From Sphingomonadales bacterium (GTDB lineage: Bacteria; Pseudomonadota; Alphaproteobacteria; Sphingomonadales; Sphingomonadaceae): a DNA stretch of 64,000 bases. Shown piece after piece: positions 3,643 to 48,248 of the stretch (position 1 is the stretch's first letter; every line of letters begins with the position of its first letter). The stretch is taken from contig JAIXPC010000002.1 in assembly GCA_027486415.1 (NCBI GenBank), positions 682,001 through 746,000 on the forward strand, read 5' to 3'. The notes beneath the pieces are model-generated. The model saw only the letters and a program-made list of their open reading frames with translations, ran no database searches and was not told where the DNA came from. The translations under genes were made by a program, and so were the position numbers.

Positions 3643-3651
3643 GGCTAGCCC

Positions 3652-4194
3652 ATGAAGCGCCTGATCTTCATCCTGCCAATCATCGCCTTTGCCGGGCTGG
3701 CGGCCTTCCTTGGCTATGGCCTGACGCAGGACCCCAAGGAACTGCCCAGCCAGCTGATCGACCGGCCGCTGCCCGAATTCGCCCTGCCCGGCATCGCCGA
3801 TGAACCGGGCGGCGGCCCTGGTCTCGCCAGCGCCAGCTTCCGGGGCGAGCCGCGCCTGCTCAACATCTGGGCCAGCTGGTGCGCGGCCTGCCCGCAGGAA
3901 CATCCGGTGCTGACCCGCATCGCGGACGAAGGCTTTCCCGTCTATGGCATCGCCTGGAAGGACAAGCCGGCAGACAGCCGTGCCTTCCTTGCCCGCTATG
4001 GCGATCCCTATGCCGGCATGGGTTCGGATTTCTCGGGCCGCACCGCCATCGATCTGGGCGTCACCGGCGCGCCGGAAACCTTCATCGTGGACAAAAAGGG
4101 CCGGGTGCGTTTCAAGCAGATCGGCCCGATCAGCCCGGAGGTGTGGGAAGGCCAGATCAAGCCGCTGATGCAGCAATTGCGGGCCGAAGCATGA
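3652..4194 (+). CDS. ccmG: CcmG/DsbE thioredoxin-like thiol:disulfide oxidoreductase
   Basis: This membrane-anchored periplasmic thioredoxin keeps apocytochrome c cysteines reduced for heme attachment. The 180-residue product has one N-terminal membrane segment (about residues 4-22) and the redox motif WCAAC with C77 and C80. GAPETFIVD near residue 142 is the usual cis-Pro region. AAGG lies 7 nt before the ATG. The stop overlaps the ccmH start as ATGA, which implies coupled translation. Confidence 0.95.
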   Translation: MKRLIFILPIIAFAGLAAFLGYGLTQDPKELPSQLIDRPLPEFALPGIADEPGGGPGLASASFRGEPRLLNIWASWCAACPQEHPVLTRIADEGFPVYGIAWKDKPADSRAFLARYGDPYAGMGSDFSGRTAIDLGVTGAPETFIVDKKGRVRFKQIGPISPEVWEGQIKPLMQQLRAEA

Positions 4195-4649
4195 AACGCC
4201 TGATCCTCGCGCTGGCGCTTGCCATCGCCGCGCCCGCCGCTGCCGTCCTCCCCGATGAAATGCTGCCCGATGCGGCGCAGGAACAGCGTGCGCGCATGAT
4301 CTCGAAGGATCTGCGCTGCGTCGTCTGCCAGAACCAGTCCATCGACGACAGTGACGCCCCGCTGGCGCGCGATCTGCGCGTGCTGGTGCGCGAACAGATC
4401 CGGCTGGGCAAAACGGATGCCGAGGTGCGCGACTATGTCGTGGCCCGCTATGGCAATTTCGTGCTGCTGAAACCGCCGGTGGAAGGCGATACGCTGCTGC
4501 TGTGGGCCGGGCCCTTTGCCGTGCTGCTGCTGGGCGGTGTGGCCATGATCCTCTGGCAACGCCGCCGCCCGGCGGCCACCCCCGATTCCGCGCCGCTCAC
4601 CGACGCCGAACGCGCCGAACTTGACCGGCTGGCCGGCCCTGCTGACTGA
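4191..4649 (+). CDS. ccmH: Cytochrome c maturation protein CcmH
   Basis: CcmH reduces or presents apocytochrome c to the CcmF lyase. The 152-residue product has a signal peptide (residues 1-18) and the diagnostic LRCVVCQNQSI motif with C43 and C46. It also has one membrane segment near residues 101-120 and a short charged C-terminus. The start overlaps the ccmG stop by 4 nt. The C-terminal TPR part present in enterobacterial CcmH is absent here and is supplied by the next gene. Confidence 0.95.
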   Translation: MKRLILALALAIAAPAAAVLPDEMLPDAAQEQRARMISKDLRCVVCQNQSIDDSDAPLARDLRVLVREQIRLGKTDAEVRDYVVARYGNFVLLKPPVEGDTLLLWAGPFAVLLLGGVAMILWQRRRPAATPDSAPLTDAERAELDRLAGPAD

Positions 4650-4657
4650 GACACTGA

Positions 4658-5902
4658 ATGACGCTCTGGATCATCCTCACCGCGCTCACCGCGCTGGCCG
4701 CAGCCTGGCTGACCATTCCGCTGGTGCGCCGCCACGAAGCGCGCGTTGACGCCCGCGCCGCCACCATTGCCGTGCTGAAGGACCAGCTCGCCGATGTCGA
4801 CGTGCAGCTCGCCGCCGGCAGCATCCAGCCCGGCGAGGCAGAGGGGCTTCGCAACGAGATCCGCCGCCGCCTGCTCGCCGCCGGCCATATCCCTACCGAG
4901 CTTGACCGCACCATGGGCCAGAGGGCGCTTTCGGGGCTGGCGCTGGGCCTTGCCGTGATGGTCGCCGGTGCCGGTGCCGCGCTCTATGCCAGCATGGGCC
5001 AGCCCGAACTGGCCGGCAGCGGCGCGCCCACGCCGGCAGCGGCCGCACCCACCGCCGCACCGGCTGGGGACGCCGCCGCGCAGGGCGAAGTGACCCAGCT
5101 GATCACTGGCCTGGAACAGAAGATGCAGGCCAATCCCGATGATCCCGAAGGCTGGCGGATGCTGGGCTGGAGCTATTTCCAGACCGGGCGTTACGCCGAT
5201 TCGGCCAAGGCCTATGCCAAGGCGATTGCGCTGAAGCCCGATGGTGTCGGCTTCCAGTCCGCCTATGGCGAGGCGCTGGTGCAGGAAGCCGGCGGGCAGG
5301 TGACGCCGGCCGCCGCCGCCGCCTTTGAAAAGGCCGCCGCACAGGATGGCAGCGATGCCCGCGCCCGCTATTTCCTCGCTGTCCGCAAGGTCGAAGCCGG
5401 TGACCGCAAGGGGGCCATCGACGATATGCTGCGCCTGATTGCCGACAGCCCGGCCGATGCGCCGTGGCTGCCGCAACTGCGCGCCGCCGTGCAACAGACG
5501 GCGCAGGCCGCCGGCATCGACATCAGCGCGCGCCTCGCGGCCGCGAAGCCGGTGGGCACCGCCAGTGTGCCGGGCCTGCCGCCGCCGGTCGCTGCTGCCG
5601 CCGCCGCCGCTGCCCCCGCGGGCGTGATGCCCGGCCCCAGCCGCGACCAGGTGCAGGCGGCGCAGGCGATGAGCCCGGCCGACCGGCAGGCGATGATCCG
5701 TTCCATGGTCGATGGCCTTGCCGAAAAGCTGAAGGCCAATCCGAAGGACGAAGGCGGCTGGCTGCGCCTGATGCGCGCCCGGCAGGTGCTGGGCGATGCC
5801 GCCGCTGCGAAAACGGCGCGGGATCAGGCGCTGGCCGCGTTCGCCGGTGATACGGCGGCGCAGGGCCGCATCCGGGCGGCGGCAGCGGAGATGGGGCTTT
5901 AA
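4658..5902 (+). CDS. ccmI: CcmI: TPR-containing cytochrome c biogenesis protein
   Basis: CcmI binds the C-terminus of apocytochrome c through TPR repeats and delivers it to CcmH/CcmF. The 414-residue product starts with a membrane segment and a cytoplasmic loop, with a second membrane segment near residue 90. TPR-like units follow (for example PDDPEGWRMLGWSYFQTGRYADSAKAYAKA), then a long Ala/Pro-rich linker and a last helical repeat. It begins 8 nt after ccmH. Its TAA stop overlaps the opposing lysR TAA at the sequence TTAA. Confidence 0.93.
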   Translation: MTLWIILTALTALAAAWLTIPLVRRHEARVDARAATIAVLKDQLADVDVQLAAGSIQPGEAEGLRNEIRRRLLAAGHIPTELDRTMGQRALSGLALGLAVMVAGAGAALYASMGQPELAGSGAPTPAAAAPTAAPAGDAAAQGEVTQLITGLEQKMQANPDDPEGWRMLGWSYFQTGRYADSAKAYAKAIALKPDGVGFQSAYGEALVQEAGGQVTPAAAAAFEKAAAQDGSDARARYFLAVRKVEAGDRKGAIDDMLRLIADSPADAPWLPQLRAAVQQTAQAAGIDISARLAAAKPVGTASVPGLPPPVAAAAAAAAPAGVMPGPSRDQVQAAQAMSPADRQAMIRSMVDGLAEKLKANPKDEGGWLRLMRARQVLGDAAAAKTARDQALAAFAGDTAAQGRIRAAAAEMGL

Positions 5903-11086: not shown

Positions 11087-12181
11087 ATGACACCGCCCCC
11101 CACCACCGACGAACCGCCGTTTGTCCCCCCGGTCGCGCCGCCGGTCGCACCGCCGCTGCAGGTCGATGACAGCGGGCGCTGGTTCCGGCGCACGCTGGCG
11201 GTGATGGCCGGCGTCGGGCTGGCGGTGATGCTGTGGCAATTGCAGCAATTGCTGCTGGTGCTGTTCGCCAGCGCGCTGGTCGGCCTGATGTTCAGCGATT
11301 TTGCCGCGCTGCTGCAGCGCCGGCTGCACCTGCCGTTCGCGCTGGCGATCACCGCAGCGGTGCTGATCCCGCTGATTGCGCTGGTGGTGATCTTCGGCCT
11401 GTTCGGCACCATGATGGTCGAACAGTTCGTCATCCTGTCCGAACAATTCCCCGAGGCGCTGGCGCGGGTGGAGGCATGGGTGCGGGCAACGCCGGTGGGC
11501 AACGACGTCATTTCCCACCTCAATGATTTCGCGCCGCGCATGGAACAGGTGGTCGGCTTTGCACAGGCGACGCTGGCCAACATCGGATCGGCGCTCACCG
11601 GGCTGGCCGTGGTGCTGGTCTCCGCGCTCTATCTGGCCGCGCAGCCGCGGCTGTATGTCGATGGCCTGATCGCCATGTTGCCGCAGCCGCGCCGCGCCCC
11701 GGCGATGGAGCTGGTGCAGGCGGTGCGCCAGTCGCTCACCGCGTGGCTGAAGGGGCAGGCGATCGGCATGGCCTTTGTCGCTGTCGGCACGTCGATCGGA
11801 TTGTGGCTGGTGGGTCTGCCGTCGCCGCTCGCCATCGGGCTGGTGGCGGGCCTGTGCGAATTCGTGCCCTATCTGGGGGTCATCCTGGTTGCCGTGCCCA
11901 CGGTGATCCTGGGCTTTGGCCAGGGAGGTGATACCGGGCTGTTCACCATCATCGCGCTGGTGGTGGTGCAGCAGTTGCAGGGCAATCTGGTGATGCCGAT
12001 CGCGCAAAAGACCTTTGGCGACCTGCCGCCGGTGCTCACCATCTTCAGCCTGATCGCGGCCGGCACGCTGATGGGGCCGCTGGGCGTCATTCTGGCGGTG
12101 CCGCTGGCCGTGGTCGGCATGGCGCTGTTGAAGGTAAGGCTGGCGCGATTGGGCCGGCACTCGCCGCTCACTGGCGGTTGA
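11087..12181 (+). CDS. AI-2E family (PerM-like) transporter
   Basis: The 364-residue product is a PF01594-type permease. It has a Pro-rich cytoplasmic N-terminus (residues 2-25), two leading membrane helices, a long soluble stretch rich in amphipathic helix, and a C-terminal membrane core. The core includes GLPSPLAIGLVAGLCEFVPYLG and the typical ending ILAVPLAVVGMALLK. Family members include the autoinducer-2 exporter TqsA but also Na+/H+ antiporters and permeases of unknown cargo, so the substrate is open. The ATG has no strong Shine-Dalgarno sequence. It is separated from dabA by a terminator. Confidence 0.85.
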   Translation: MTPPPTTDEPPFVPPVAPPVAPPLQVDDSGRWFRRTLAVMAGVGLAVMLWQLQQLLLVLFASALVGLMFSDFAALLQRRLHLPFALAITAAVLIPLIALVVIFGLFGTMMVEQFVILSEQFPEALARVEAWVRATPVGNDVISHLNDFAPRMEQVVGFAQATLANIGSALTGLAVVLVSALYLAAQPRLYVDGLIAMLPQPRRAPAMELVQAVRQSLTAWLKGQAIGMAFVAVGTSIGLWLVGLPSPLAIGLVAGLCEFVPYLGVILVAVPTVILGFGQGGDTGLFTIIALVVVQQLQGNLVMPIAQKTFGDLPPVLTIFSLIAAGTLMGPLGVILAVPLAVVGMALLKVRLARLGRHSPLTGG

Positions 12182-12227
12182 TGCCCTTGCACCGCCCGCC
12201 GGGGCGTGTATCAGCCGCCGGCAGATC

Positions 12228-13328
12228 ATGTCGCAATCCCCGTCACCCCACCCGGCCTTCCTGCTGATCGACCGTTCCGCCGTGCTGTTCTGCGGCGTGG
12301 CGGCGGGCATTGCCATTGGCCTGGCCTTTGCCCCCCAGCTGGAGGCGTGGCGCGCCGACGCGCCGGCACCCGCCGTGGCCGCAGCGGCACCACCGCAGCA
12401 GCTGGATGCCGAAGGCCTGCCGACCGACGTGGCCGATGCCGGCGAGGTGCCGCCCGGCCTGCTGCGCGCGGTGGCCGAAAAGCGCCCGTTCCGCATCGGT
12501 GTGTTTGGCGACAGTTTTGGCGATGGCCTGTGGTCGGCGCTGTACAACCAGCTGCCCCGGCGGGAAGCCTTCCAGGTGCTGCGCTATTCCGAACAGGCGA
12601 CCGGATTCACCCGTTATCGCCAGACCAACCTGGAAGACCGGCTGGCGACCCACCTGGCCGAAGGGCCGGTGGACGTGGCGGTGATCAGCTTTGGTGCCAA
12701 CGATGTTCAGGGCCTGTTTGTCGATGGCAAGGTGGCGCCGCTGCTGTCGCCGGCGTGGCAGGCCGAAATCGGCGCGCGCATCACCCGATATGTGAAGGCG
12801 TTGCAGGCGCAGGGGGCCAGCGTTGTCTGGATCGGCCTGCCGGTGATGCGCGATGCCGCCTATGATGGCCAGGTGCAGGGGCTCAATGCCTTTTACGCGA
12901 AGCTGCTCGCCCCGCTGGGCGTGCCGTTCATCGACACTCGCGCAGCCGCTGCCGATGCCGCTGGCCGCTATGCATCCCATCTGCCCGGCAAGGATGGCGT
13001 GCCGTGGTTGGTGCGCGCCGGCGACGGCGTGCACATGAGCATGAAGGGCTATCGCCTGCTGACCGATGCGCTGGCGACCCGGCTGCGCGCCTGGGGCGAA
13101 ACGGCCCGCGCCGGCAAGAGCGTGACGGCAACGCAGGTTCCGCCACCCGTGGCGCTGCCACCGGCAGCCGTTGTCACCCGTGCGCCGGCACAGGCTGCGC
13201 CAGCGGCAGCAGAATCCGGCATCCTGCCCGCTCCCGCCCCGGCCGCCCCGCCGCCTGCGGAGCCGGCCGCGCCGCCCGTCGATCTGCTGCCACCGCCGGC
13301 TGACGCCGCCGAACCGCCCAAGGGCTGA
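12228..13328 (+). CDS. Periplasmic SGNH hydrolase, DUF459-like (first of two)
   Basis: The 366-residue protein has a membrane anchor or signal segment at about residues 15-38. An SGNH fold follows: nucleophile S96 in GVFGDSFGDG, a GAND block (SFGANDVQG) and the catalytic pair D266/H269 in GDGVHMS. The last 80 residues are a low-complexity Pro/Ala linker. Such enzymes move or remove acetyl groups on exported polysaccharides or peptidoglycan. Its stop overlaps the next start by 1 nt (TGATG), and three more coupled genes follow, so it likely works with the MBOAT protein encoded downstream. The substrate is not known. Confidence 0.8.
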   Translation: MSQSPSPHPAFLLIDRSAVLFCGVAAGIAIGLAFAPQLEAWRADAPAPAVAAAAPPQQLDAEGLPTDVADAGEVPPGLLRAVAEKRPFRIGVFGDSFGDGLWSALYNQLPRREAFQVLRYSEQATGFTRYRQTNLEDRLATHLAEGPVDVAVISFGANDVQGLFVDGKVAPLLSPAWQAEIGARITRYVKALQAQGASVVWIGLPVMRDAAYDGQVQGLNAFYAKLLAPLGVPFIDTRAAAADAAGRYASHLPGKDGVPWLVRAGDGVHMSMKGYRLLTDALATRLRAWGETARAGKSVTATQVPPPVALPPAAVVTRAPAQAAPAAAESGILPAPAPAAPPPAEPAAPPVDLLPPPADAAEPPKG

Positions 13329-14635
13329 TGGCGGCGCTCGCCACCATCGCACTTGCCGCTGCCCCGTGCGTGGCGGCATTGTGCGGGGCCGATCTCCTGG
13401 CCGGCGTGCCGCTCACCCCGGCCCAGATGCCAACCGATCGCCCGGTGCACATCGTGCAGATCGGCGATTCGCACACTGCCGGCGACGCCATTACCAGCGC
13501 GCTGAGAGAAGCGCTGCAGGCCCGGCTGGGCAATGGCGGGCGCGGGCTGATGCCGCCGGGCCGTCCCCATGCCGGCGTGCGCCTGCGCGGTGTTTCCATA
13601 ACGCAATCAGGCGGCTGGAGCGCGCGTGGACTGTTTGGCAGTGGCGCTGCCGAGCCGTGGCCGCCGCGCGGCATCACCGGCTACACCCTCACCAGCAGCA
13701 GCCCCGGCGCGTCGCTGTCGCTCACCGCCGATGCCAGTTTCACCGCCTTTGGCGTGTGTGTCGCCACGAGCGCCGACGGCCCGCACCTGCAGCTGACGCT
13801 GGGCACCGACACGCAGGAATTGGCCTTTGTCGGCGACGGCCCCGAATGCCGCCGCATCGTGCCGGCTGTTGCCACCGACAGCGCGCGGCTCGAACTGATC
13901 AGCGGCGATGCCATCGTCACCGCCTGGTGGGTGGAACGGCCCACCGGCGTGGTCGTCTCCAATCTGGGTGTGCCTGGATCGCAGCTGCAATTCCTGGGCC
14001 GCGCCGATGATGCCACCATCGCCGCGCAATTCCGCGCCCTGCCGCCAGACCTGATCATCCTCGCCTTTGGCACCAACGAGGGTTTTGCGCCGTTTTTCGA
14101 TGCAACGCGGCTGGAAAGCCAGATTCGCGAACAGGTTGCGCGGATTCGACGACTGGCCGGCACTGTGCCGATCCTGCTGATCGGGCCGCCCGACGCTGCC
14201 AGCCGCAACACCGAACTGCGCCGCAATGCGCCGTGGGAAGCGACCGATTGCAACAGTGCCATCCAGCGCACGCCGGGCCGCCTGCCGGTGGAAGGCCTGG
14301 ATATCCCGCTGTGGATCGACGAGGGCGGGTCGCTCGCACCGGATCCCGTGCAGTTTTCCGGCCCGGTGCCGCGCGCCGTGCGGCGTGGCCTGCCGCTGTT
14401 CAACCCGCCTGCGCTGGCTGCGGCCAGCGCCGTGCAGCGCCGGCTGGCGGGCGAACTGGGCGTCGCCTTCTGGGATTGGCGGGCGCGGCAGGGCGGGGCT
14501 TGTGCGGCGGTGCGCTGGATGCAATCGGGGCTGATGGGCCCTGATTTCATTCACTATTCCCCGACCGGCGGCGCGGAGGTGGCGCGGATGCTGCTTGCCG
14601 ATCTGGACGCAGCGCGGACCGCAGGCGGCCACTGA
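13328..14635 (+). CDS. Periplasmic SGNH/GDSL hydrolase (second of two)
   Basis: The 435-residue product begins with a signal peptide (about residues 1-17). It carries nucleophile S48 in QIGDSHTAGD, a Gly block, the Asn-containing FGTNEGF and the catalytic D406/H409 in GPDFIHYSP. GDSHT-type enzymes include peptidoglycan O-acetyl transfer and esterase proteins (PatB/Ape1-like). It shares little with the first SGNH protein, so this is a pairing of two different subfamilies and not a simple duplication. The start overlaps the upstream stop, and its own stop overlaps the MBOAT start, in both cases by 1 nt. Confidence 0.8.
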   Translation: MAALATIALAAAPCVAALCGADLLAGVPLTPAQMPTDRPVHIVQIGDSHTAGDAITSALREALQARLGNGGRGLMPPGRPHAGVRLRGVSITQSGGWSARGLFGSGAAEPWPPRGITGYTLTSSSPGASLSLTADASFTAFGVCVATSADGPHLQLTLGTDTQELAFVGDGPECRRIVPAVATDSARLELISGDAIVTAWWVERPTGVVVSNLGVPGSQLQFLGRADDATIAAQFRALPPDLIILAFGTNEGFAPFFDATRLESQIREQVARIRRLAGTVPILLIGPPDAASRNTELRRNAPWEATDCNSAIQRTPGRLPVEGLDIPLWIDEGGSLAPDPVQFSGPVPRAVRRGLPLFNPPALAAASAVQRRLAGELGVAFWDWRARQGGACAAVRWMQSGLMGPDFIHYSPTGGAEVARMLLADLDAARTAGGH

Positions 14636-38044: not shown

Positions 38045-39763
38045 ATGGCCGCCACCGACCTGACACAGATGAACCTGAACCAGCTGGTCTACCGCTGGCT
38101 GAAGGACATCGTCTGGCCGGAAAAGAATTATTTCTGGCTGGCGGTGATCTATGGTCTGGGCATTGCGCTGCTGGGCCTGGCGACGCCGATCTCGGTGCAG
38201 CTGCTGATCAACTCCATCGCCAACACGGCGTTGCCGGTGCCGCTGTTCACCCTGTCGGCCATATTGTTCGGGCTGCTCGTGGTGTCGGGCCTGCTGTCGG
38301 TGCTGCGCATCCACCTGATGGAAATGTATCGCCGTCGTTTCATGGCGCGGCTGGTCGCCGACGTGACGGTGCGGGTGATCAACGCTGCCGATCCCTTCTT
38401 CCAGGATGATCGCCGCATCGATCTGTTCAATCGCTATTTCGAACTGGTCAACATGCAAAAGGCGGTGCCGTCGCTGCTGATCGGTGGCTTCACCATCGTG
38501 CTCGGCATGGCGGTGGGCTTTGTCGTCACCAGTTTCTACCACCCGTTCTTCCTGGCGTTCAACCTGGTGCTGATCGTGCTGCTGTGGGCGGTGTGGGCGA
38601 TCTGGGCCAAGGGCGCGATGAAGACGTCGATCAACCTGTCCCACGAAAAATACAACGCCGCCCACTTCCTCGAAACGGTGGGCGCGTCCAACGGTTTCTT
38701 CAAATCGTCACGCCACATCGAATATGCGCTGGAACGGGCCGAACAGGTGTCGGCCAACTATGTGAATGCCCACAAGGCGCATTTCCGTTTCCAGTTCCCG
38801 CAGACGATCGCGCTCTATTTCCTCTATGCCGCGGCCTCCGCCGGCCTGCTGGCACTGGGTGGCTGGCTGGTCATCCAGGAACAATTGTCGATCGGCCAGC
38901 TGGTCGCGGCCGAACTGATCCTGTCCGGCGTGTTCGCCGGCATGAACAGCCTCTATTCCTATCTCGACGACTGGTACGACCTTGTCGCATCGGTCGAGGA
39001 ATTGTCGCTGCTGTACGGGCTGAAGCAGGAACCGCCGGTGCCGGCCGGGGTGGCGCCACCGCGCAGCGGCGCACTGACGATGGGCAAGGTGCGCTTTGAC
39101 CTGCCGGTTGGTGCGGCCGAGCTGAACGTGGAGATTCCGCAGGGCAGCCGGCTGGTGGCGCAGGGCGTGCCCGGCATGGAGCGGGTGTTTGCCGATCTGC
39201 TCAAGCGGCTCGAACGACCGGAATCGGGTCTGCTCACCCTTGGCGGCGTGGATATCGCGCTGATGGATCCGCTCGCACTGCGATCCGATATCGTCGTGCT
39301 GGACCGCGCGACCATGGTGGAATCCACGATCGCCGATTATCTCAGGCTGGCCAATCCGGACAAGAATGCCGCCGACCAGATGGCGGCACTCCGCCTGGTC
39401 GGGCTCGAAGACCGGCTGGCGCTGTTGCCCGACGGCCTGCTTACCCGGTTGTCGTCGACAGGCGCACCGTTCACGGTCGCCAAGATGATGCAGCTGAAAC
39501 TGGCCGCCGCCATCCTGTCGGAACCGCGCATCCTGGTGATGTCGCCGCTCTACGATTCGGTTGCGCGCCCGCGGCTGAAGGCGGTGTTCGATCACTTCCG
39601 CAACACGTCGACAACCATCCTCTATTTCAGCAACCGCCCGGAAGATCTGGTGCTGGATGGCTATCTGTGGCTCGGGCTCGATCACCAGCTGATCACGCGC
39701 GATCGCGGCACGTTCGACAAGCTGCGTTCGGCGGCCGGACGGGAGACGATCGTTGGCGACTGA
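38045..39763 (+). CDS. ABC exporter half-transporter with degenerate ATPase domain
   Basis: The 572-residue product has an N-terminal exporter-type membrane domain (about residues 25-320, six helices) and a C-terminal nucleotide-binding-like domain in which every catalytic motif is changed. Walker A reads GVPGMERV (374-381, Lys to Arg, Ser lost). The signature reads LSSTGAPFT. Walker B reads ILVMSPLYD, with S500 and P501 where Asp and Glu should be. The switch His is Asn (YFSNRPEDL). The frame is intact and the codon use normal, so this is a conserved pseudo-ATPase and not a decayed gene. It is followed by coupled MFP and TolC genes. How transport is energised is unknown. Confidence 0.85.
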   Translation: MAATDLTQMNLNQLVYRWLKDIVWPEKNYFWLAVIYGLGIALLGLATPISVQLLINSIANTALPVPLFTLSAILFGLLVVSGLLSVLRIHLMEMYRRRFMARLVADVTVRVINAADPFFQDDRRIDLFNRYFELVNMQKAVPSLLIGGFTIVLGMAVGFVVTSFYHPFFLAFNLVLIVLLWAVWAIWAKGAMKTSINLSHEKYNAAHFLETVGASNGFFKSSRHIEYALERAEQVSANYVNAHKAHFRFQFPQTIALYFLYAAASAGLLALGGWLVIQEQLSIGQLVAAELILSGVFAGMNSLYSYLDDWYDLVASVEELSLLYGLKQEPPVPAGVAPPRSGALTMGKVRFDLPVGAAELNVEIPQGSRLVAQGVPGMERVFADLLKRLERPESGLLTLGGVDIALMDPLALRSDIVVLDRATMVESTIADYLRLANPDKNAADQMAALRLVGLEDRLALLPDGLLTRLSSTGAPFTVAKMMQLKLAAAILSEPRILVMSPLYDSVARPRLKAVFDHFRNTSTTILYFSNRPEDLVLDGYLWLGLDHQLITRDRGTFDKLRSAAGRETIVGD

Positions 39764-40835
39764 CCGTTCCCCCCTGCCGCAGGGCCATTTCGCCACGCTG
39801 CGCGGTCTGAACCCGCCGCCGGTGATGCGGATCTTTGCCTGGATCGTCGTGTCGAGCATCGTCGCCACCCTGCTGCTGATCACGCTGGTACCATGGGTGC
39901 AGACGGCACAGGGCAGCGGGCAGGTGATCGCCTTCGACCCGCGTGACCGCCAGCAGAACATCACGGCGCTGGTGCCGGGCCGGCTGGATCGCTGGTATGT
40001 GACCGATGGTGCCAACGTGAAGGCTGGTGATGCCATTGCCCGCGTCGTCGATCTCGATCCCGATTTCCTCAACCGCCTGCGCGCCGAACGCGATCAGAAG
40101 CTGGCGGAAATGGCCGCGACCGACGCCGCGATGGCCACGGCCCAGCGCGACGTGAAGCGCATGGCGACGCTGTATGGCGAAGGGCTGGCGGCGCGCCGCG
40201 ACATGGAACTGGCGCAGATCAAGGTGGCCGATTACGCCGCCAAGCTGGCCTCGCTCAGGGCGGACATCAACAAGATCGATGTCAACCTGCGCCGCCAGTC
40301 GGAACAGCTGATCCGGGCGCCGCGCGATGGCCGCATCCTGCGGGTGAGCAGCATCGACAGCGCCACCATCGTCAAGCAGGGCGACGTGCTGGCCACGTTC
40401 GTGCCCGAACATTCGCGCCGGGTGGTGGAACTCTATGTCGATGGTCGCGACATCCCGCTGATCAACCCCGGCCGCCGCGTGCGGCTGGAATTCGAAGGCT
40501 GGCCGGCTATCCAGTTCTCGGGCTGGCCGTCGGTTGCCAAGGGCTTCTTCGATGGCCAGGTGGCGGCACTGGATTTGAACGCGTCGCCCAACGGTCTGTT
40601 CCGCATCCTGGTGGTGGAATCGCCCGATCGCGATCCGTGGCCATCCGAACAATCGGTGCGGCTGGGTGCCAAGGTGCGCGGCTGGGTGCAGATGAACACC
40701 GTGCCCATCTGGTTCGAACTGTGGCGCATCCTGAACGATTTCCCATTGCAGTTCAGCCGGCCCAGCGCCGCGCCGGCGGAAGACGGCGAAATCAAGTCGG
40801 CAAAGGGCGGCGATGCCAGCAAGGCTGCCAAGTAA
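39753..40835 (+). CDS. HlyD-family periplasmic adaptor (membrane fusion protein)
   Basis: The 360-residue protein has one N-terminal membrane helix (about residues 30-50), a split biotinyl-lipoyl domain (GRLDRWYVTDGANVKAGDAIARVVDLD, then LIRAPRDGRILRVSSIDSATIVKQGD), a helical hairpin between (residues 105-190), and a beta-barrel C-terminus. Its start is the TTG at 39753, within the end of the ABC gene (11-nt overlap), with GGGAGA 6 nt upstream. It should bridge the ABC-like membrane protein and the TolC-type channel. Confidence 0.9.
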   Translation: MATDRSPLPQGHFATLRGLNPPPVMRIFAWIVVSSIVATLLLITLVPWVQTAQGSGQVIAFDPRDRQQNITALVPGRLDRWYVTDGANVKAGDAIARVVDLDPDFLNRLRAERDQKLAEMAATDAAMATAQRDVKRMATLYGEGLAARRDMELAQIKVADYAAKLASLRADINKIDVNLRRQSEQLIRAPRDGRILRVSSIDSATIVKQGDVLATFVPEHSRRVVELYVDGRDIPLINPGRRVRLEFEGWPAIQFSGWPSVAKGFFDGQVAALDLNASPNGLFRILVVESPDRDPWPSEQSVRLGAKVRGWVQMNTVPIWFELWRILNDFPLQFSRPSAAPAEDGEIKSAKGGDASKAAK

Positions 40836-42291
40836 GGCATCGGCACTGGCGCTGCTGTTGCTGTCTGCGGCGGCGCAGGCGCAGGTGGTGCCGGGGCAGA
40901 CCAGCCGCGCGCTGGAGGCCGAAGCCCGCGCCGATGCGCGCCCGGTTGCCACTGCCACCGCGCCGCTGGGGCTGGATGAGGTGCTGGCCGCCAGCCGCTT
41001 CCACGCGCCGCAGGTGCTGGAGGCGCTGGCCCGCGTGCGCGGCGCCGAAGCCCGCCTGTTGACCACCGAAGGCGCGTTCGACACGCTGTTCAACGCCAAC
41101 CTGGATACGCGGCCGACCGGTTTCTACGATGGCAGTGATGTCGGCGTGCGTCTGGCGCAGCCGCTGGCAACCAACGGCGGCAATGTCTATGCCGGATACG
41201 ACCTGTCCCGTGGCAGTTTCCCCGGCTACCAGGCCGGCAACTACACCGCGCGCTATGGCCGCTTCACCGCCGGCACATTGTTTTCGCTGCTGCGCGATCG
41301 CGACATCGACGAACGCCGTTTCAACCGCGCCATGGCCAGCGCCGATATCGTGCTGGCCGACAATGATCGCCTGATGGTGGCGATCGGCGTGCAGGCCCGC
41401 GCCATCGCGGCATGGAACAACTGGGTGATCGCCGGCCAGCGCGTCGCTGTCTACAAGGATCTGCTGCAACTGGCGCTGGATCGCCAGGCCGGCTTCAAGC
41501 GCCAGGTCGCCGAAGGGCTGCGCCCCGCCATCCTGCTCACCGAAAACGAACAGAATATCCTGCGCCGGCAAACCCTTGTCGTGCAGTCGCAGCAGGCACT
41601 GGAACAGGCCGCCGTGGCCCTGTCGCTGTTCTGGCGCGATGCCGATGGCAACCCGCAGGTGCCCGGTGCCGATCGCCTGCCACCCCGGCTGGGCGCGCCG
41701 CTGCCGCTGGCCGACGACGTGATGGCGGCGCTGGAAAATCGTCCCGATCTCAGGCTGGTGGACGTGCGGATCGCGCAGGCGCGCACCCGGTTGCAGCTCG
41801 ATCGCAACACCTTCCTGCCCCGGCTCGATCTGAAGGCCGAGGTCAATCAATATCTGGGCGACAGCGGCATTGGCGGCAGGGCCTATACCGGCACCGAAAG
41901 CAAGCTGGGCGTCACCCTGTCGGTGCCGCTGCAGCAGCGCATCGCGCGTGGCCGGCTGGGGCAGACGAACGCCGAGATCGACGGGTTCCAGCAGCGCCGC
42001 CGCCTGATCGAGGACCAGATCCGCGCCGAGATCATGGGGCTTTCCATCGCCGCGCGCCAGGCCCGCCGCCTGTTGGGCATCGCCATCGACGAACAGGAAC
42101 GCGCCGGCGCCATGGCCGGTGCCGAACGTCGCCGCTTTCAGGAAGGCGCGTCGGATTTCTTCCTTGTGAACCTGCGTGAAGAAGCCGCTGCCGACGCGCA
42201 GGTGCGCCGTCTTGATGCCGCCTTCCGCCAGATCGTCGCCCATGCCGATCTTGCCGCCGCCACGGCCGATGTGAAGGCGCTCGGCCTGTGA
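40813..42291 (+). CDS. TolC-family outer membrane channel protein
   Basis: The 492-residue product has a signal peptide (about residues 1-23) and long helical repeats with the TolC/OEP pattern (DEVLAASRFHAPQVLEALARVRGAEA; later NRPDLRLVDVRIAQARTRLQLDRNTFLPRLDLKAEV). A second helical block follows and ends near FQEGASDFFLVNLREE. It starts 23 nt inside the adaptor gene. It completes the tripartite export system. Confidence 0.9.
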   Translation: MPARLPSKASALALLLLSAAAQAQVVPGQTSRALEAEARADARPVATATAPLGLDEVLAASRFHAPQVLEALARVRGAEARLLTTEGAFDTLFNANLDTRPTGFYDGSDVGVRLAQPLATNGGNVYAGYDLSRGSFPGYQAGNYTARYGRFTAGTLFSLLRDRDIDERRFNRAMASADIVLADNDRLMVAIGVQARAIAAWNNWVIAGQRVAVYKDLLQLALDRQAGFKRQVAEGLRPAILLTENEQNILRRQTLVVQSQQALEQAAVALSLFWRDADGNPQVPGADRLPPRLGAPLPLADDVMAALENRPDLRLVDVRIAQARTRLQLDRNTFLPRLDLKAEVNQYLGDSGIGGRAYTGTESKLGVTLSVPLQQRIARGRLGQTNAEIDGFQQRRRLIEDQIRAEIMGLSIAARQARRLLGIAIDEQERAGAMAGAERRRFQEGASDFFLVNLREEAAADAQVRRLDAAFRQIVAHADLAAATADVKALGL

Positions 42292-42719
42292 TGCGTGCCT
42301 TCGTCATTGCCCTCGCCCTGGCAACGCCGGCCGCCGCGCACGATCTTCGCATCGAAAAACCGGTGCTCCGCGTCGCTTCGCCCGTGTCGAAAACCGGCGC
42401 GGGTTACATGGTGATCCGCAACACCGGTCGCACGGCAGACACGCTGCTTTCGGTCGCCACGGATGCCTCCAACCGGTCAGACCTGCACGGCACCATCCAG
42501 AGCGGTGGCGTGATGAAGATGCGCGCGCAGGCGGACGGCGTGCCGATCGCGCCGGGGGGGCGCGTCGTGTTCGCGCCAGGCGGCCTCCACATCATGTTCA
42601 TCGGCCTGAAAAAGCCGGTGCCACCGGGCACGAAGGTGCCGGCCCGGCTGACCTTTGCCCGCGCCGGCGCGATCGATGTCGTCTTTACGGCGGAAGGCTT
42701 CAGCCCAGCCGGCGGTTGA
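42291..42719 (+). CDS. PCu(A)C copper chaperone domain protein
   Basis: The 142-residue periplasmic protein has a signal peptide (MRAFVIALALATPAAA) and the copper motif with H66, M77, H100 and M102. The spacing is HX10M as usual and then 22 residues to HXM, one more than the standard 21. GGVMKMRAQ and PGGLHIMFIGLKKP are typical. Such proteins carry Cu(I) to cytochrome oxidase or other periplasmic targets. The ATG overlaps the TolC stop (TGATG), so it belongs to the export operon; a GTG 3 nt earlier is the alternative. The last 20 nt overlap the opposing DUF2490 gene. Confidence 0.88.
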   Translation: MRAFVIALALATPAAAHDLRIEKPVLRVASPVSKTGAGYMVIRNTGRTADTLLSVATDASNRSDLHGTIQSGGVMKMRAQADGVPIAPGGRVVFAPGGLHIMFIGLKKPVPPGTKVPARLTFARAGAIDVVFTAEGFSPAGG

Positions 42720-43406: not shown

Positions 43407-45569
43407 TCAGGCCTTCAGCAGCGCCGTATCGAACGGCAACTTGCGCAGCCGCACGCCGGTGGCGGCAAAGATGGCGTTGGCCAGCGCCGGGGCGACGGCC
43501 GGATAGGCCGGCTCGCCCAGGCCCGTCACCGGATAATCCGGCGTCAGGAAAGCGACCTCGATCGGCGGGGCCTGGTCCATGCGGAGCATCGCCACGTCGC
43601 CGAAATTGCGCTGTTCGATGGCGCCATCGGCAAAGGTGATGGCGTGGTTCTGGCAGGCACCCAGCGCATCCAGGATGCTGCCCTGCACCTGGTTGATGGC
43701 GCCAGCCGGGTTGACGATCTGGCGGCCGATGTCGCCCGCCGTCCAGATCTTGTGCACCTTGATCTCGCCTTCGGGGCTCACGCTGGCTTCGATCACGTTG
43801 GCGAAATAGCCGAGGTGGCTGAAGTGGAAGGCAATCCCCAGCCCGGTGCGCTTGGGCAGCTTGCGGCCCCAGCCGGCCATTGCGGCCGCCTTGTCGAGCA
43901 CGGCGCGCATCCGGCCGGTGTTGTACGAACCGCGCGCATTGGGATCGCCGATGATGCGGGGCGCGCCCAGGAAATCGCGGCGGAACTGCACCGGATCGGC
44001 CTTGGCGGCAAAGGCCAGTTCATCGATGAAGCACTGGGTGACAAAGCCAAAGGCGTTGTTGGACGGCGCGCGCAGGAATCCTGTCGTGTGCTGCAGCGGC
44101 AAGATGGTCGCGCCCAGCCGGAAATCATCGACCATGCCGGCCGGAAAATCGGTGGGGCCGATGCCGGCGGCGCGGGCAAACTTCCCGTCGCGGCCGAACG
44201 ACACGAAATGATTGTCCCACGCGATGCAGCGGCCCTGTGCGTCCAGCCCGGCTTCCAGGAAATGCCAGCCGCCGGGGCGCAGGAAATCCTGGGTGATGTC
44301 GTCCTCGCGCGTCCACGTCAGCTTCACCGGGCGGCCGGCCTGCTTCGCGATCGCGGCGGCTTCCACCATGTAATCATTCTGCAGCCGCCGGCCGAACCCG
44401 CCGCCGACGCGCAGCATGTGGATGGTGATATTCTCCGGCTTCACGCCCAGCGTTTTCGCCACGGCAGCGCAGCCCGGTTCCGGGTTCTGCGTCGGGGCCC
44501 AGATTTCCACCTTGTCGCCATCCACGCGCGCGGTGCAGTTGATCGGCTCCATCGGCACGTGCGGGATGAAGGGATAGGCGTAATCGGCGCGGATGCGCTT
44601 GGCCGCGCGCGCCATGCCGCCGGCAATGTCGCCGCTGGCGTGGATCGGCATGGCGGCCCCCCTGGCCTTGGCCTCTGCCGCCATCTTCGCCCACGCCGCT
44701 GTTGATTGCGCCGCGGCCGGGCTGTCGCTCCACGCGACCTCCAGCACGCCGCGCGCGCGCTGCGCGTGCCAGGTGGTATCGGCCAGGATGGCAACGCCGC
44801 TGGCCAGCCCTTCATATTCGTCGGTGCCGGCAACGACGAAGGCATCGCGCACGCCGGCCTGTGTCTTCACCGCATCGATGTTGGCGCTCTTCACCTTGGT
44901 GCCCTGCACGCCGGATTTGTGGAAGGCGGCGTGCAGCATTCCCGGCACCTTGGCATCGATGCCATAATCCTGCTGGCCGGCGACGATGGCGCGGTTGTTG
45001 ACCCCGGGCTGGAACGTGCCGACCAGCGTGAAAGTCTTCGGGTCCTTCACGGCCACCTTGGCGGCATCCGGCGCGGGCAGGGCGGCGGCAGCAGCGGCGA
45101 ACTGGCCATAGGGTGCCTTTTTCTGGCCGTGCATCACCATGGCCTTCGCCGTCGTGATCTCGGCCGCCGGCACGCCCCATGCGGCGGCGGCAGCCTCCAC
45201 GATCATGGCGCGCGCGCCGGCGCCCACCCGGCGCATGGCCTCATACTGGGTGGTCATCGCCATCGAACCACCGGCCACCTGCCGGCCATAGATCTTGGCA
45301 TCGGCAAGGGTCGGCACGATCTCCACCGCGGCCCAGTCGGCGTCCAGTTCCTCGGCGATCACCATCGGCAGGCTGGTGCGGATGCCTTGGCCCACTTCCG
45401 GGTTGCTGGCCATGATGCGGATGCGTCCCGTCGGCGGGATCACCACCCAGGCATTCAGCTGGCCGGCTTCCGCCGCGCTCGCCGCCTCAGGGCCGAGGCC
45501 AAGATACAGCCCGCCCCCCACCGCGGCGCTGGCAAACAGGAAATTGCGGCGGGAAAGCTGGATGGTCAT
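43407..45569 (-). CDS. Molybdopterin-binding aldehyde/xanthine dehydrogenase-like subunit (IorB type), copy 2
   Basis: The 720-residue periplasmic catalytic subunit belongs to the xanthine dehydrogenase family, closest in build to isoquinoline 1-oxidoreductase beta. It has a Tat leader (SRRNFLFAS near residue 6), [47 protein letters not shown] and the catalytic E686 in GLGEPAYP. It pairs with the [2Fe-2S] protein encoded two genes upstream. The substrate (an aldehyde or N-heterocycle) cannot be told. It lies 7 nt after its paralogue. Confidence 0.9.
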   Translation of the reverse strand: MTIQLSRRNFLFASAAVGGGLYLGLGPEAASAAEAGQLNAWVVIPPTGRIRIMASNPEVGQGIRTSLPMVIAEELDADWAAVEIVPTLADAKIYGRQVAGGSMAMTTQYEAMRRVGAGARAMIVEAAAAAWGVPAAEITTAKAMVMHGQKKAPYGQFAAAAAALPAPDAAKVAVKDPKTFTLVGTFQPGVNNRAIVAGQQDYGIDAKVPGMLHAAFHKSGVQGTKVKSANIDAVKTQAGVRDAFVVAGTDEYEGLASGVAILADTTWHAQRARGVLEVAWSDSPAAAQSTAAWAKMAAEAKARGAAMPIHASGDIAGGMARAAKRIRADYAYPFIPHVPMEPINCTARVDGDKVEIWAPTQNPEPGCAAVAKTLGVKPENITIHMLRVGGGFGRRLQNDYMVEAAAIAKQAGRPVKLTWTREDDITQDFLRPGGWHFLEAGLDAQGRCIAWDNHFVSFGRDGKFARAAGIGPTDFPAGMVDDFRLGATILPLQHTTGFLRAPSNNAFGFVTQCFIDELAFAAKADPVQFRRDFLGAPRIIGDPNARGSYNTGRMRAVLDKAAAMAGWGRKLPKRTGLGIAFHFSHLGYFANVIEASVSPEGEIKVHKIWTAGDIGRQIVNPAGAINQVQGSILDALGACQNHAITFADGAIEQRNFGDVAMLRMDQAPPIEVAFLTPDYPVTGLGEPAYPAVAPALANAIFAATGVRLRKLPFDTALLKA

Positions 45570-45576
45570 GATGGCC

Positions 45577-47802
45577 TCACGCTGTCAGCAGGCTGGTATC
45601 AAGGGGCAGGGCGCGCAGCCGCTTGCCGGTCGCCTGGAAAATCGCGCCGGCCAGCGCCGGGGCGAGGCTGGGATAGGCCGGCTCGCCAAGGCCGGTGGTG
45701 GGGAAATCGGTGGACAGGAACGCCACCTCGACCGCCGGGGCCATCTCCATGCGCGCGAGGCTGTAATCGCCGAAATTCCTCTGCGCGACCGCGCCGTCCT
45801 CAAAGGTGATGCGCTGGCCCAGCGCCGCGCCCAGCGCATCGATCACGCTGCCCTGCACCTGGTTTTCCGCGCCCGACAGGTTGATGATGTGCTTGCCGAC
45901 ATCGGCGGCCACCCAGATCTTGTGCACCTTCACGCTGCCGTCGCCGGCGACGCTGGCTTCGACCACGTTGGCGAAATAGCCCAAATGGCTGAAGTGGAAG
46001 GCGATCCCCATGCCGGTGCGGGGCGGCAGCTTGCGGCCCCAGCCGGCCATGGCAGCGGCCTTGTCGAGCACGCCGCGCATCCGCCCGGTGTGATAGGGGG
46101 TGCCGGTGTTCTCCGCACCCTCCGCCCCGCCTTCGGCCGCCATCGGAATGGCCCGGCCGGTGCCGAGCAGCGTGCGGCGATAGTCCAGCCCATCGCGGCC
46201 GGCGGCATGGGCGCATTCGTCGATCAGGCCCTGCGTCACGAAGGCAAAGGCATTGTTGATGGGCGCGCGCAGCCAGCCCAGCGTGGACGCCAGCGGCAGC
46301 ACGGTCACATCGGCGCGATAATCCTTGATCACGCCGGCCGGGAACAGCGACTGATCGATGCTCGCCGGCGGGTCGAGCACGCCATTGCGGCCAAAGCTGA
46401 TGAAGTGATCGTGCCAGGCGATGATGTCGCCTTTCGCGTCCAGCCCCGCCTCCATGCGGTGCCAGCCGCCGGGGCGCAGCCAGTCGTGGGCGAAATCCTG
46501 CGCGCGGTCCCAGGTCAGCTTCACCGGCACGCCGGCCGCCTTGGCGATCACCGCGGCTTCCACCGCGACATCGTTCATCAGCCGCCGGCCAAAGCCGCCG
46601 CCCGACCGCATCAGGTTCAGCGTCACGTCCTCAGGCTTGATGGCCAGCGCCGCGGCCACCATGCGGCGCGCGTCTTCCGGTGTTTGCGTTGAAAGCCACA
46701 ACTCGCATTTGCCGTTCGCCACGTGGGCGGTGGCGTTCATCGGCTCCAGCGCGGCGTGGGCGATGAAGGGGTAGCTGTAATCGGCGCGGATGCGCTTCGC
46801 GGCGCTGGCCAGCCTGCCCGGCGCGTCACCATGATTGATGAAGCCCGGCTTTTGCGGGCCATCCTTCAGCGCCTTGGCAGCGGCGGCATCCCATGCGGCG
46901 GTGGACTGGAAGGCGGCATCGCCCCCCTCCCACACGGCGGCGAGCGCATCGCGGCCCCGCATCGCGGCCCAGCTGCTGGTGGCGATCACCGCGATGCCCT
47001 GCGGCAGCACCTCGATGCCGGGCAGCGGCACGTCGATCTCGGCCTTCAGGTCGCGGCGTTCGGCAACGTCGATCACCGCCTTCACGCCCGGCACCGCCAG
47101 CGCGGCGGCCTTGTTGGCGCTTTTCAGCTTGCCGCCGAACACCGGCGATTTGGCAAAGGCGGCATAGGCCATGCCCGGCGGGCGGGCATCGATGCCGAAC
47201 AGCGGCTGGCCGGTGACGAGCTTTTGATTGTCCACGCCGGGCACGCGGCGGCCAAGGATGCGGAACTGGTCCGGCGTCTTCAGCGTCAGCGTCTTGGGAT
47301 CGGGGGCGGGCAGCCAGGCGGCGGCTTCGGCCATATCGGCATAACGCGCGCTGCGGCCCGACGCCTTGTGATGCAGCATGGCGCTGCCGGTGGTGATCTC
47401 CGCCGCCGGCACCTTCCAGGCCTTGGCAGCGGCATTGACCAGCATGGCGCGTGCGCCCGCGCCCAGCCGGCGCATCCGGTCGAACTGGGTGGGGGTGGCC
47501 ATCGAGCCGCCGGCGATCTGCATGCCATAGACGGCGCGGTTGCCGGTGGCCTGCACCACGGTCACCTGGTTCCAGTCCACGTCCAGCTCCTCCGCGATCA
47601 TCATCGGGAAACTGGTCTTCACGCCCTGGCCCACTTCGGGGTTGTGGGCAGTGATGCGGATGGTGCCATCGGCATCGATGATGACGAACGCCGAAAACGC
47701 GCCCGGCACGCTGGCGCGGGCGCCGGCAAATTGCCAGCCCAGGCTCAGCCCGCCGCCGGCAATGATGCCGGCCTTCAGGACGCTGCGGCGCGACAGGCTC
47801 AC
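45577..47802 (-). CDS. Molybdopterin-binding aldehyde/xanthine dehydrogenase-like subunit (IorB type), copy 1
   Basis: The 741-residue paralogue of the next gene has a Tat leader ([11 protein letters not shown]), [55 protein letters not shown] and catalytic E707 in GLGEPAYP. A short insert with [10 protein letters not shown] near residue 570 is absent in the second copy. The start is the GTG at 47802, overlapping the iorA stop as GTGA; a much longer open frame upstream lies inside iorA in another phase. Confidence 0.9.
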
Positions 47803-48248
47803 GCGGCGGCGGCCTGCTTGATGGCGGCGCGGATGCGGGTGTAGGTGGCGCAGCGGCACAGATTGCCGCTCATCGCCGCATCGATATCGGCATCGGTCGG
47901 CTTGGGCGTCGAACGCAGCAGGGCTTCGGCGGCGAGCAATTGCCCGGCCTGGCAGTAACCGCATTGCGGCACGTCCAGCGCCACCCAGGCCGCCTGCAGC
48001 TTGCGGCCCCATTCCGATGCCGACAGGCCTTCGATGGTGGTGATCTTCGCCGTGCCGACGGCCGATATCGGCGTCTGGCAACCCCGCACCGGCTCTCCAT
48101 CCAGCTGCACCGTGCAGGCCCCGCAGAACCCGGCGCCACAGCCGAACTTGGTGCCGGTCAGCCCCAGCACGTCGCGCAGCGCCCACAGCAGGGGCATATC
48201 GGGATCGGCGGTCACCTCCACGGGCTTGCCGTTGATGTTGAGCTTCAT
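47799..48248 (-). CDS. (2Fe-2S)-binding subunit of molybdenum hydroxylase (IorA type)
   Basis: The 149-residue protein has a plant-type ferredoxin domain with C37, C42, C45 and C57 ([19 protein letters not shown]) and a C-terminal four-helix domain with QCGYCQAG and GNLCRCATY for the second [2Fe-2S] cluster. It transfers electrons from the molybdenum subunit, presumably to a cytochrome c since no FAD subunit is encoded. It is the first gene of the operon, divergent from the esterase gene with 102 bp between. Confidence 0.93.

Follow-up and report, generated by a model that had tools for sequence, protein, structure and literature searches.

Type I secretion exporters, in which an ATP-binding cassette (ABC) protein of the HlyB/PrtD/LssB class is combined with HlyD and TolC, are among the closest described counterparts of the operon reported here. 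An adaptor and TolC also surround the ATPase-free inner-membrane transporters of ion-driven tripartite pumps, both those of the RND type and those of the MFS type such as EmrAB-TolC. In a 64,000-nucleotide (nt) stretch of a Sphingomonadales genome (contig JAIXPC010000002.1, positions 682,001 to 746,000; hereafter the window), whose source assembly is 2.7 Mb in size and 97.5% complete, three overlapping genes at positions 38045-42291 encode a half-exporter of the ABC type, a periplasmic adaptor, and a channel of the TolC family, and a PCu(A)C gene comes next. The membrane-domain class, the gene trio, and the predicted fold are those of type I secretion exporters, whereas the ABC protein retains no catalytic ATPase residue and has no C39 or C39-like domain ahead of the membrane domain, at which its 572 residues begin; its adaptor is short, and no conserved substrate gene was seen. 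Unlike the inner-membrane proteins of RND and MFS pumps, it has an ABC-exporter fold.

A degenerate nucleotide-binding domain (NBD) retained within the fold, as in the window protein, is familiar from the heterodimers TM287/288, TmrAB, BmrCD, and Pdr5. These complexes keep a canonical site (PMC7756269), whereas a homodimer of the window protein would have both sites dead, and no linked partner occurs in the main set of loci. Exporters in which the membrane domain lacks a functional ATPase domain likewise exist in engineered form, as LmrA-MD and MsbA-MD. As described in three papers, these are laboratory truncations of normal ATPases with demonstrated transport, in that LmrA and MsbA without the NBD carry drugs on ion gradients, and LmrA depends on E314, a glutamate of transmembrane helix 6 (TM6) (PMC2704374, PMC6155054, PMC4979069). 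In the present case the loss is natural and affects a tripartite operon whose transport activity is a prediction. No paper on this degenerate ABC family was found in the literature searched, which left out most subscription journals.

Loss of the ATPase site in the window protein and its family

The reading frames for the ABC, adaptor, TolC-like, and PCu(A)C proteins are all open, and gene overlaps of 11 and 23 nt agree with the statement, made in a preliminary description of this DNA, that the ABC frame is intact and that the adaptor and TolC genes are translationally coupled to the ABC gene. A six-helix ABC membrane domain of the exporter superfamily is recognized both by Pfam ABC_membrane (PF00664; 31.8 bits against a cut-off of 28) and by Foldseek, for which the predicted structure has HlyB (7sgr) as its top match, with TmrAB and Atm1 also matching; HlyB is the best PDB sequence match as well. 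The NBD fold of the ABC exporter (type IV fold) superfamily is present by prediction, and Pfam returned no ABC_tran match up to an E-value of 1 (HMMER filters drop most matches above 0.1). The best NCBIfam model, TIGR01846, scores 115.9 bits against a cut-off of 725.6, HlyB-like general exporter models span both halves of the protein at scores far under their cut-offs, and no model specific to the degenerate family emerged from the Pfam and NCBIfam scans. The predicted structure is weak in the first intracellular loop, where stretches between residues 121 and 135 have predicted local distance difference test (pLDDT) values below 50.

Read from an alignment with canonical half-exporters, the positions of the Walker A lysine, the Q-loop glutamine, the LSGGQ signature, the Walker B Asp-Glu pair, and the switch histidine are occupied in the window protein by E379, D420, FTVAK, S500-P501, and N530, respectively. 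Judged by sequence alone, the ATP hydrolysis of type I secretion is missing here, and the window protein is predicted to be an ABC-fold protein without a working ABC ATPase. Replacement of the ATPase motifs had been noted before, and the Walker A, Walker B, and switch histidine assignments stand as given, but the segment previously taken for the signature, LSSTGAPFT (469-477), mostly precedes the true LSGGQ site, FTVAK (476-480).

The loss extends across the family. We pooled homologues and removed duplicates over the last 300 residues, leaving out a sister clade and an NBD-less protein from genome G093 that are both treated below. Among the resulting 133 distinct sequences, 120 retain none of the six catalytic residues (K, S/T, Q, D, E, H), and the remaining 13 retain one each: only S/T in seven, only H in three, only E in two, and only K in one. 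Neither the Q-loop glutamine nor the Walker B aspartate is kept in any of them. Where canonical proteins have the Walker A lysine, 127 sequences have E, Q, or D, and 116 have arginine at the Ser/Thr position; R421, G473, and P475 are each found in all 133 and D504 in 97%. Because other residues at or near the lost sites are conserved instead, the pseudo-NBD appears to be under a different constraint, and its nucleotide site looks rebuilt rather than merely eroded. An apparent Walker A in one family member proved to be a chance motif match near the C terminus. The preliminary description had raised the question of whether homologues share the motif loss, which they do, and the extent of the sharing contradicts a sequencing error as its source; the picture of a catalytically dead yet retained ABC subunit is thus upheld and widened to a whole family. 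Given this pattern of replacement, the ABC protein is predicted no longer to hydrolyze ATP, and probably no longer binds it either.

The ratio of nonsynonymous to synonymous substitution rates (dN/dS) of the ABC gene, compared with seven close loci, is 0.14-0.24, with values of 0.12-0.16 for the membrane domain and 0.14-0.38 for the NBD. A decaying pseudogene, or an error in the sequence, would account for the lost motifs, but these low ratios, the open frames, the conservation of the protein, and losses common to 133 distinct sequences already refute such an explanation, to which we attach practically no credence. Conservation is pronounced in the membrane domain, where Q52, R130, Y165, K202, Q253, Q285, and E290 are invariant in 147 aligned sequences. 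The polar members Q52, Q253, Q285, and E290 fall in predicted TM helices, and E290, located in TM6, is a glutamate in all 147 sequences and is absent from all six canonical proteins aligned.

Two relatives bracket the degenerate condition of the main family. In family f240 of the same phylum, a match at E <= 1e-45 was obtained in 14 of 60 genomes, and 13 of the 14 proteins keep the Walker A lysine, the Ser/Thr, and the Walker B aspartate, the fourteenth having the aspartate only; the Q-loop glutamine, the catalytic glutamate, and the switch histidine are absent from all 14. Pfam ABC_tran exceeds its cut-off in two of the three f240 proteins scanned, and the third, which is the fourteenth protein, has no match. 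The adaptor gene is next in all 14 loci and a TolC match follows in seven (E 1e-6). To judge by its residues, this sister clade is an apparent intermediate stage of ATPase loss. The survival of Walker A in this one clade implies that the common ancestor of the family had it; around the root of the family tree built with canonical exporters, supports are 32-62 and branches are long, so that the P-loop clade may or may not branch first and Walker A may have been lost once or more often.

The second relative, encoded in genome G093, is an ABC protein of 327 residues that ends just past the membrane domain. Its TGA overlaps the adaptor ATG (ATGA, a spacing of -4, which equals the median ABC-adaptor spacing over 50 loci), and the three forward frames downstream show no evident NBD; when the 11.5 kb locus was searched by tblastn with the NBD alone, the best match had an E-value of 0.14. 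The G093 protein shares 62% identity with the L053 membrane domain and has every one of the seven residues found invariant across the other 147 sequences. By contrast, K220 of the second intracellular loop, the loop that in exporters touches the NBD, is present in 98.5% of the 133 homologues and is glutamine in G093. A search with the G093 protein for NBD-less genes on further plasmids returned only the 15 plasmid records considered below, the downstream parts of which were not rechecked for an NBD.

Energy source and candidate partners

We consider it plausible, at slightly under an even chance, that the operon encodes a complete tripartite exporter whose ABC protein has become independent of ATP and operates as a homodimer driven by an ion gradient. 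In such a mechanism, the homodimeric membrane domain would alternate by coupling to the gradient, most likely of protons, with polar residues embedded in the membrane, the invariant E290 among them, as candidates for the ion site; the retained pseudo-NBD would serve as a dimerization or gating scaffold, and the transported cargo would pass on to the adaptor and TolC. A more tentative, though still quite possible, account of its origin is that the lineage gave up ATP stepwise, losing first the hydrolytic residues, then nucleotide binding, and finally, in one genome or more, the NBD altogether, to arrive at an ion-driven tripartite exporter.

Several observations weigh against this proposal. The ion drive is argued from analogy, and the energy source is one that we infer. 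E290 probably does not occupy the position of LmrA E314, as it lies 89 residues ahead of the Walker A lysine position, compared with 74 residues between E314 and K388. Part of the constraint on the NBD may be relaxing, since the mean frequency of the major residue is 0.56 in the NBD against 0.64-0.76 in the TM helices and the NBD dN/dS reaches 0.34-0.38 in two of the seven comparisons. The NBD-less case comes from one genome, 93% complete and in about 250 contigs, so that an assembly artifact is possible. A potential partner also exists even in the five carriers with the fewest half-exporters, which have three, the degenerate one and two canonical ones. Finally, all 10 Xanthomonas loci have a canonical MsbA_rel gene upstream of the degenerate one, an arrangement that provides the strongest indication of a partner.

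A partner would make the exporter a heterodimer, in which an ATPase-competent half-exporter encoded elsewhere, for instance MsbA_rel, supplies the power while the degenerate subunit provides specificity and the link to the adaptor. Exporters that are heterodimers with one degenerate site have been amply described (PMC7756269). A tblastn search at 1e-12 of the window between 28 and 52 kb revealed no further ABC NBD, which confirms the earlier observation that the operon contains no second ABC gene, and the same threshold gave none in 73 loci, each about 16 kb long. Elsewhere in the window genome there are four other half-exporters: MsbA_rel, two LssB-type type I secretion ATPases, one scoring above and one below the model cut-off, and a fourth that matches no NCBIfam model at 1e-150. 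The search for a partner turned up no half-exporter dedicated to the operon.

Across 48 carriers counted, ABC_membrane matches number 3 to 13 per genome. In two carriers, G121 and G280, the two other half-exporters are MsbA_rel (816 bits, and 779 bits, just below the cut-off) and one protein without an NCBIfam match at 1e-150; because neither is of the LssB type, a type I secretion ATPase is not a general requirement. MsbA_rel (TIGR02204) is present in all 56 carriers of the order, a point in favor of a heterodimer, but this says little because the order as a whole has it in 282 of 292 genomes. Outside the order, it was undetected at E 1e-180 in eight of 21 carriers (15 first-look candidates were scored per genome, and one of the eight genomes is 90% complete). 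Also against a heterodimer, five carriers have only two other half-exporters, and the NBD-less G093 protein could not form a composite ATP site.

In the four Xanthomonas loci printed in full, a 299-residue gene on the same strand intervenes, placing MsbA_rel two genes away, and in L162 the order is MsbA_rel, a gene that looks LysR-like by eye, the degenerate ABC gene, adaptor, and TolC. Among 80 named loci, a nearby canonical exporter gene occurs in 10, all from Xanthomonas. Transfer of MsbA_rel into Xanthomonas together with the operon is unsupported by the MsbA_rel tree, in which the Xanthomonas proteins form a long branch of their own, apart from the sphingomonad lineages that host the degenerate gene (several nodes are weak, at 52-70, and only the long branch is used here). 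On account of this separate branch, the operon probably landed beside a resident MsbA_rel gene. We regard a heterodimer as unlikely overall, though not lightly dismissed. The preliminary description had offered an active partner encoded elsewhere or another means of driving transport; both stay the principal options, and the NBD-less member, the want of a dedicated partner, and the eight carriers without detected MsbA_rel lean toward another drive, set against the adjacency in Xanthomonas.

Distribution, gene neighborhood, and cargo

A homologue at E <= 1e-60 is present, one each, in 56 of 296 Sphingomonadales genomes including that of the window, the other 55 proteins being 37-87% identical to it. 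Profile searches at E <= 1e-90 matched three of 385 class-level genomes, all from the family of the window organism, and 11 of 398 phylum-level genomes. A scan of named genomes gave at least 535 confirmed relatives. The best 80 of these, which form the set of named loci, include Sandarakinorhabdus, Sphingobium, Novosphingobium, Sphingomonas, Blastomonas, and Erythrobacter, as well as Xanthomonas (10), Caulobacter, Parvularcula, Kordiimonas, and metagenome-assembled genomes (MAGs) of Halieaceae. The survey covers lineages within the phylum of the window organism. Group f195, counted within the 133 homologues, was found in five of 59 genomes in its family search and has seven carriers overall; all of its motifs are gone but for a lone histidine in one of the seven, and the gene trio occurs in all seven, three being cut by the ends of the fetched sequence. 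Two copies of the degenerate ABC gene were observed in isolate bin40 (L105 and L106) and in Sphingobium psychrophilum (L121 and L123).

The gene also resides on 15 plasmid records, four of them predicted to be conjugative or mobilizable, and the tree of membrane domains places its Xanthomonas and Caulobacter members among Sphingomonadales sequences with support of 98-100. Given this nesting and the plasmid records, the unit moves between lineages, which fits self-sufficiency.

The genes that travel with the ABC gene are few. Adaptor and TolC genes follow it in 129 of 136 loci, the other seven being cut by contig ends: in the order, the adaptor is present in 56 of 56 loci and TolC in 55, the last contig ending inside the adaptor, and in the named set the adaptor is present in 80 of 80 (begun in six cut ones) and TolC in 74, six loci stopping at a contig end. 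Besides these two, no neighbor cluster exceeds 16 of the 56 order loci, and nothing next to the operon stood out in them as a conserved substrate gene, although substrates can be unlinked. Since no such gene adjoins the operon, the cargo seems likelier to be a small molecule than a protein.

This context bears on two further explanations. The degenerate ABC protein might act as an unpowered gate, opening adaptor and TolC for downhill release of an abundant metabolite, as the lost catalytic motifs, the lack of a conserved cargo gene, and an adaptor that fits an RND-type model better than the HlyD model (79.3 against 59.9 bits, both below cut-offs) would allow. Such a gate would risk leakage, however, and the invariant polar residues in the predicted TM helices suggest more than the lining of a pore, so that we think it quite improbable. 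ABC proteins can also act as regulators, SUR1 being an example, and a LysR-like gene (identified by eye, and annotated LysR in one plasmid) is the immediate neighbor of the operon in 13 of the 54 order loci for which an ABC gene was called; the ABC protein might accordingly be a sensor or assembly platform instead of a transporter. The strict linkage to adaptor and TolC and the minority occurrence of the LysR-like gene speak against this role, which we judge very unlikely. An ion-driven exporter is the reading that we favor.

A metal-related periplasmic cargo, hinted at in the preliminary description by the PCu(A)C gene, did not find support. The loci examined have PCu(A)C close to the operon only in the genus of the window organism and one close MAG, and in the four sister genomes measured a gap of 42-104 nt lies 3′ of TolC in every case, with another small gene preceding PCu(A)C in three; PCu(A)C probably stands outside the exporter. 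In L060, L062, and L063, the order after TolC is a small gene (113-115 residues), PCu(A)C, and a cytochrome c-like gene; the window is without the small gene and has no called cytochrome c gene, so that PCu(A)C looks coupled to TolC. An anti-phage role was considered and set aside, as no PADLOC model matched at 1e-5.

Other neighbors were recorded in passing. Two adjacent large homologous genes of one cluster occupy the minus strand of the window at 43407-45569 and 45577-47802, which look like genes for molybdenum hydroxylase large subunits, and a small gene at 47799-48248 overlaps the second. A large gene of one cluster, zinc metalloprotease-like by eye, follows TolC in three loci of genus g53; in L053 it lies at 11298-13820 and has a HEIGHALGFSH motif. 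It is a candidate neighbor or cargo and is not conserved in the family.

Table 1. Coordinates of the operon features in the window, and of two sets of features in other loci where a locus is named.
Feature	Position	Strand	Basis
Degenerate ABC half-exporter, 572 residues, ATG start, six-helix membrane domain and pseudo-NBD	38045..39763	+	Open reading frame; Pfam ABC_membrane
Membrane domain, residues 15-325	38087..39019	+	Pfam match 32-296; predicted helices; conserved better than NBD
E290 in TM6	38912..38914	+	Alignment
Pseudo-NBD, residues 344-565, ABC ATPase fold retained by prediction	39074..39739	+	
Lost Walker A, GVPGMERV (374-381); Lys position E379, Ser/Thr position R380	39164..39187	+	Alignment
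Lost Q-loop Gln, D420, with R421 next	39302..39304	+	Alignment
Lost signature, TRLSSTGAPFTVAK (467-480); FTVAK under LSGGQ	39443..39484	+	Alignment
Lost Walker B Asp-Glu, S500-P501	39542..39547	+	Alignment
Lost switch His, N530	39632..39634	+	Alignment
Adaptor, HlyD/RND-type membrane fusion protein, 360 residues, TTG start, 11-nt overlap with ABC gene	39753..40835	+	Pfam HlyD_3, Biotin_lipoyl_2
TolC-family outer membrane channel, 492 residues, 23-nt overlap with adaptor gene	40813..42291	+	Pfam OEP, 80.9 bits
PCu(A)C copper chaperone, 1-nt overlap with TolC gene	42291..42719	+	Pfam PCuAC, 113.3 bits
NBD-less family member	L056, oriented 3524-4507		
Xanthomonas loci with upstream MsbA_rel (L152, L158, L162, L163, L166, L167, L171, L176, L178, L179)	about 3000-4900		

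Implications for ABC exporters

The degenerate genes are readily misread. Five of the 15 plasmid records annotate the product as an "ABC transporter ATP-binding protein", a misleading name for genes of this kind, and similarity-based surveys of type I secretion can miss such trios. A 2025 survey reports zero type I secretion systems of the studied classes in its strains of X. arboricola pv. juglandis (PMC12448352); the ABC-adaptor-TolC trio is carried by CFBP 2528 of that pathovar (L166), a strain other than those of the survey.

ABC exporters are defined by their use of ATP, and in the papers cited above, secondary transport by the membrane domain of such exporters is documented for LmrA, MsbA, and their laboratory truncations. 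A natural family with dead NBDs, together with an intermediate and an NBD-less member, makes the question of secondary transport directly testable. If the ion drive proposed here is true, the family would be a case in which a primary pump has turned into a secondary one in nature.

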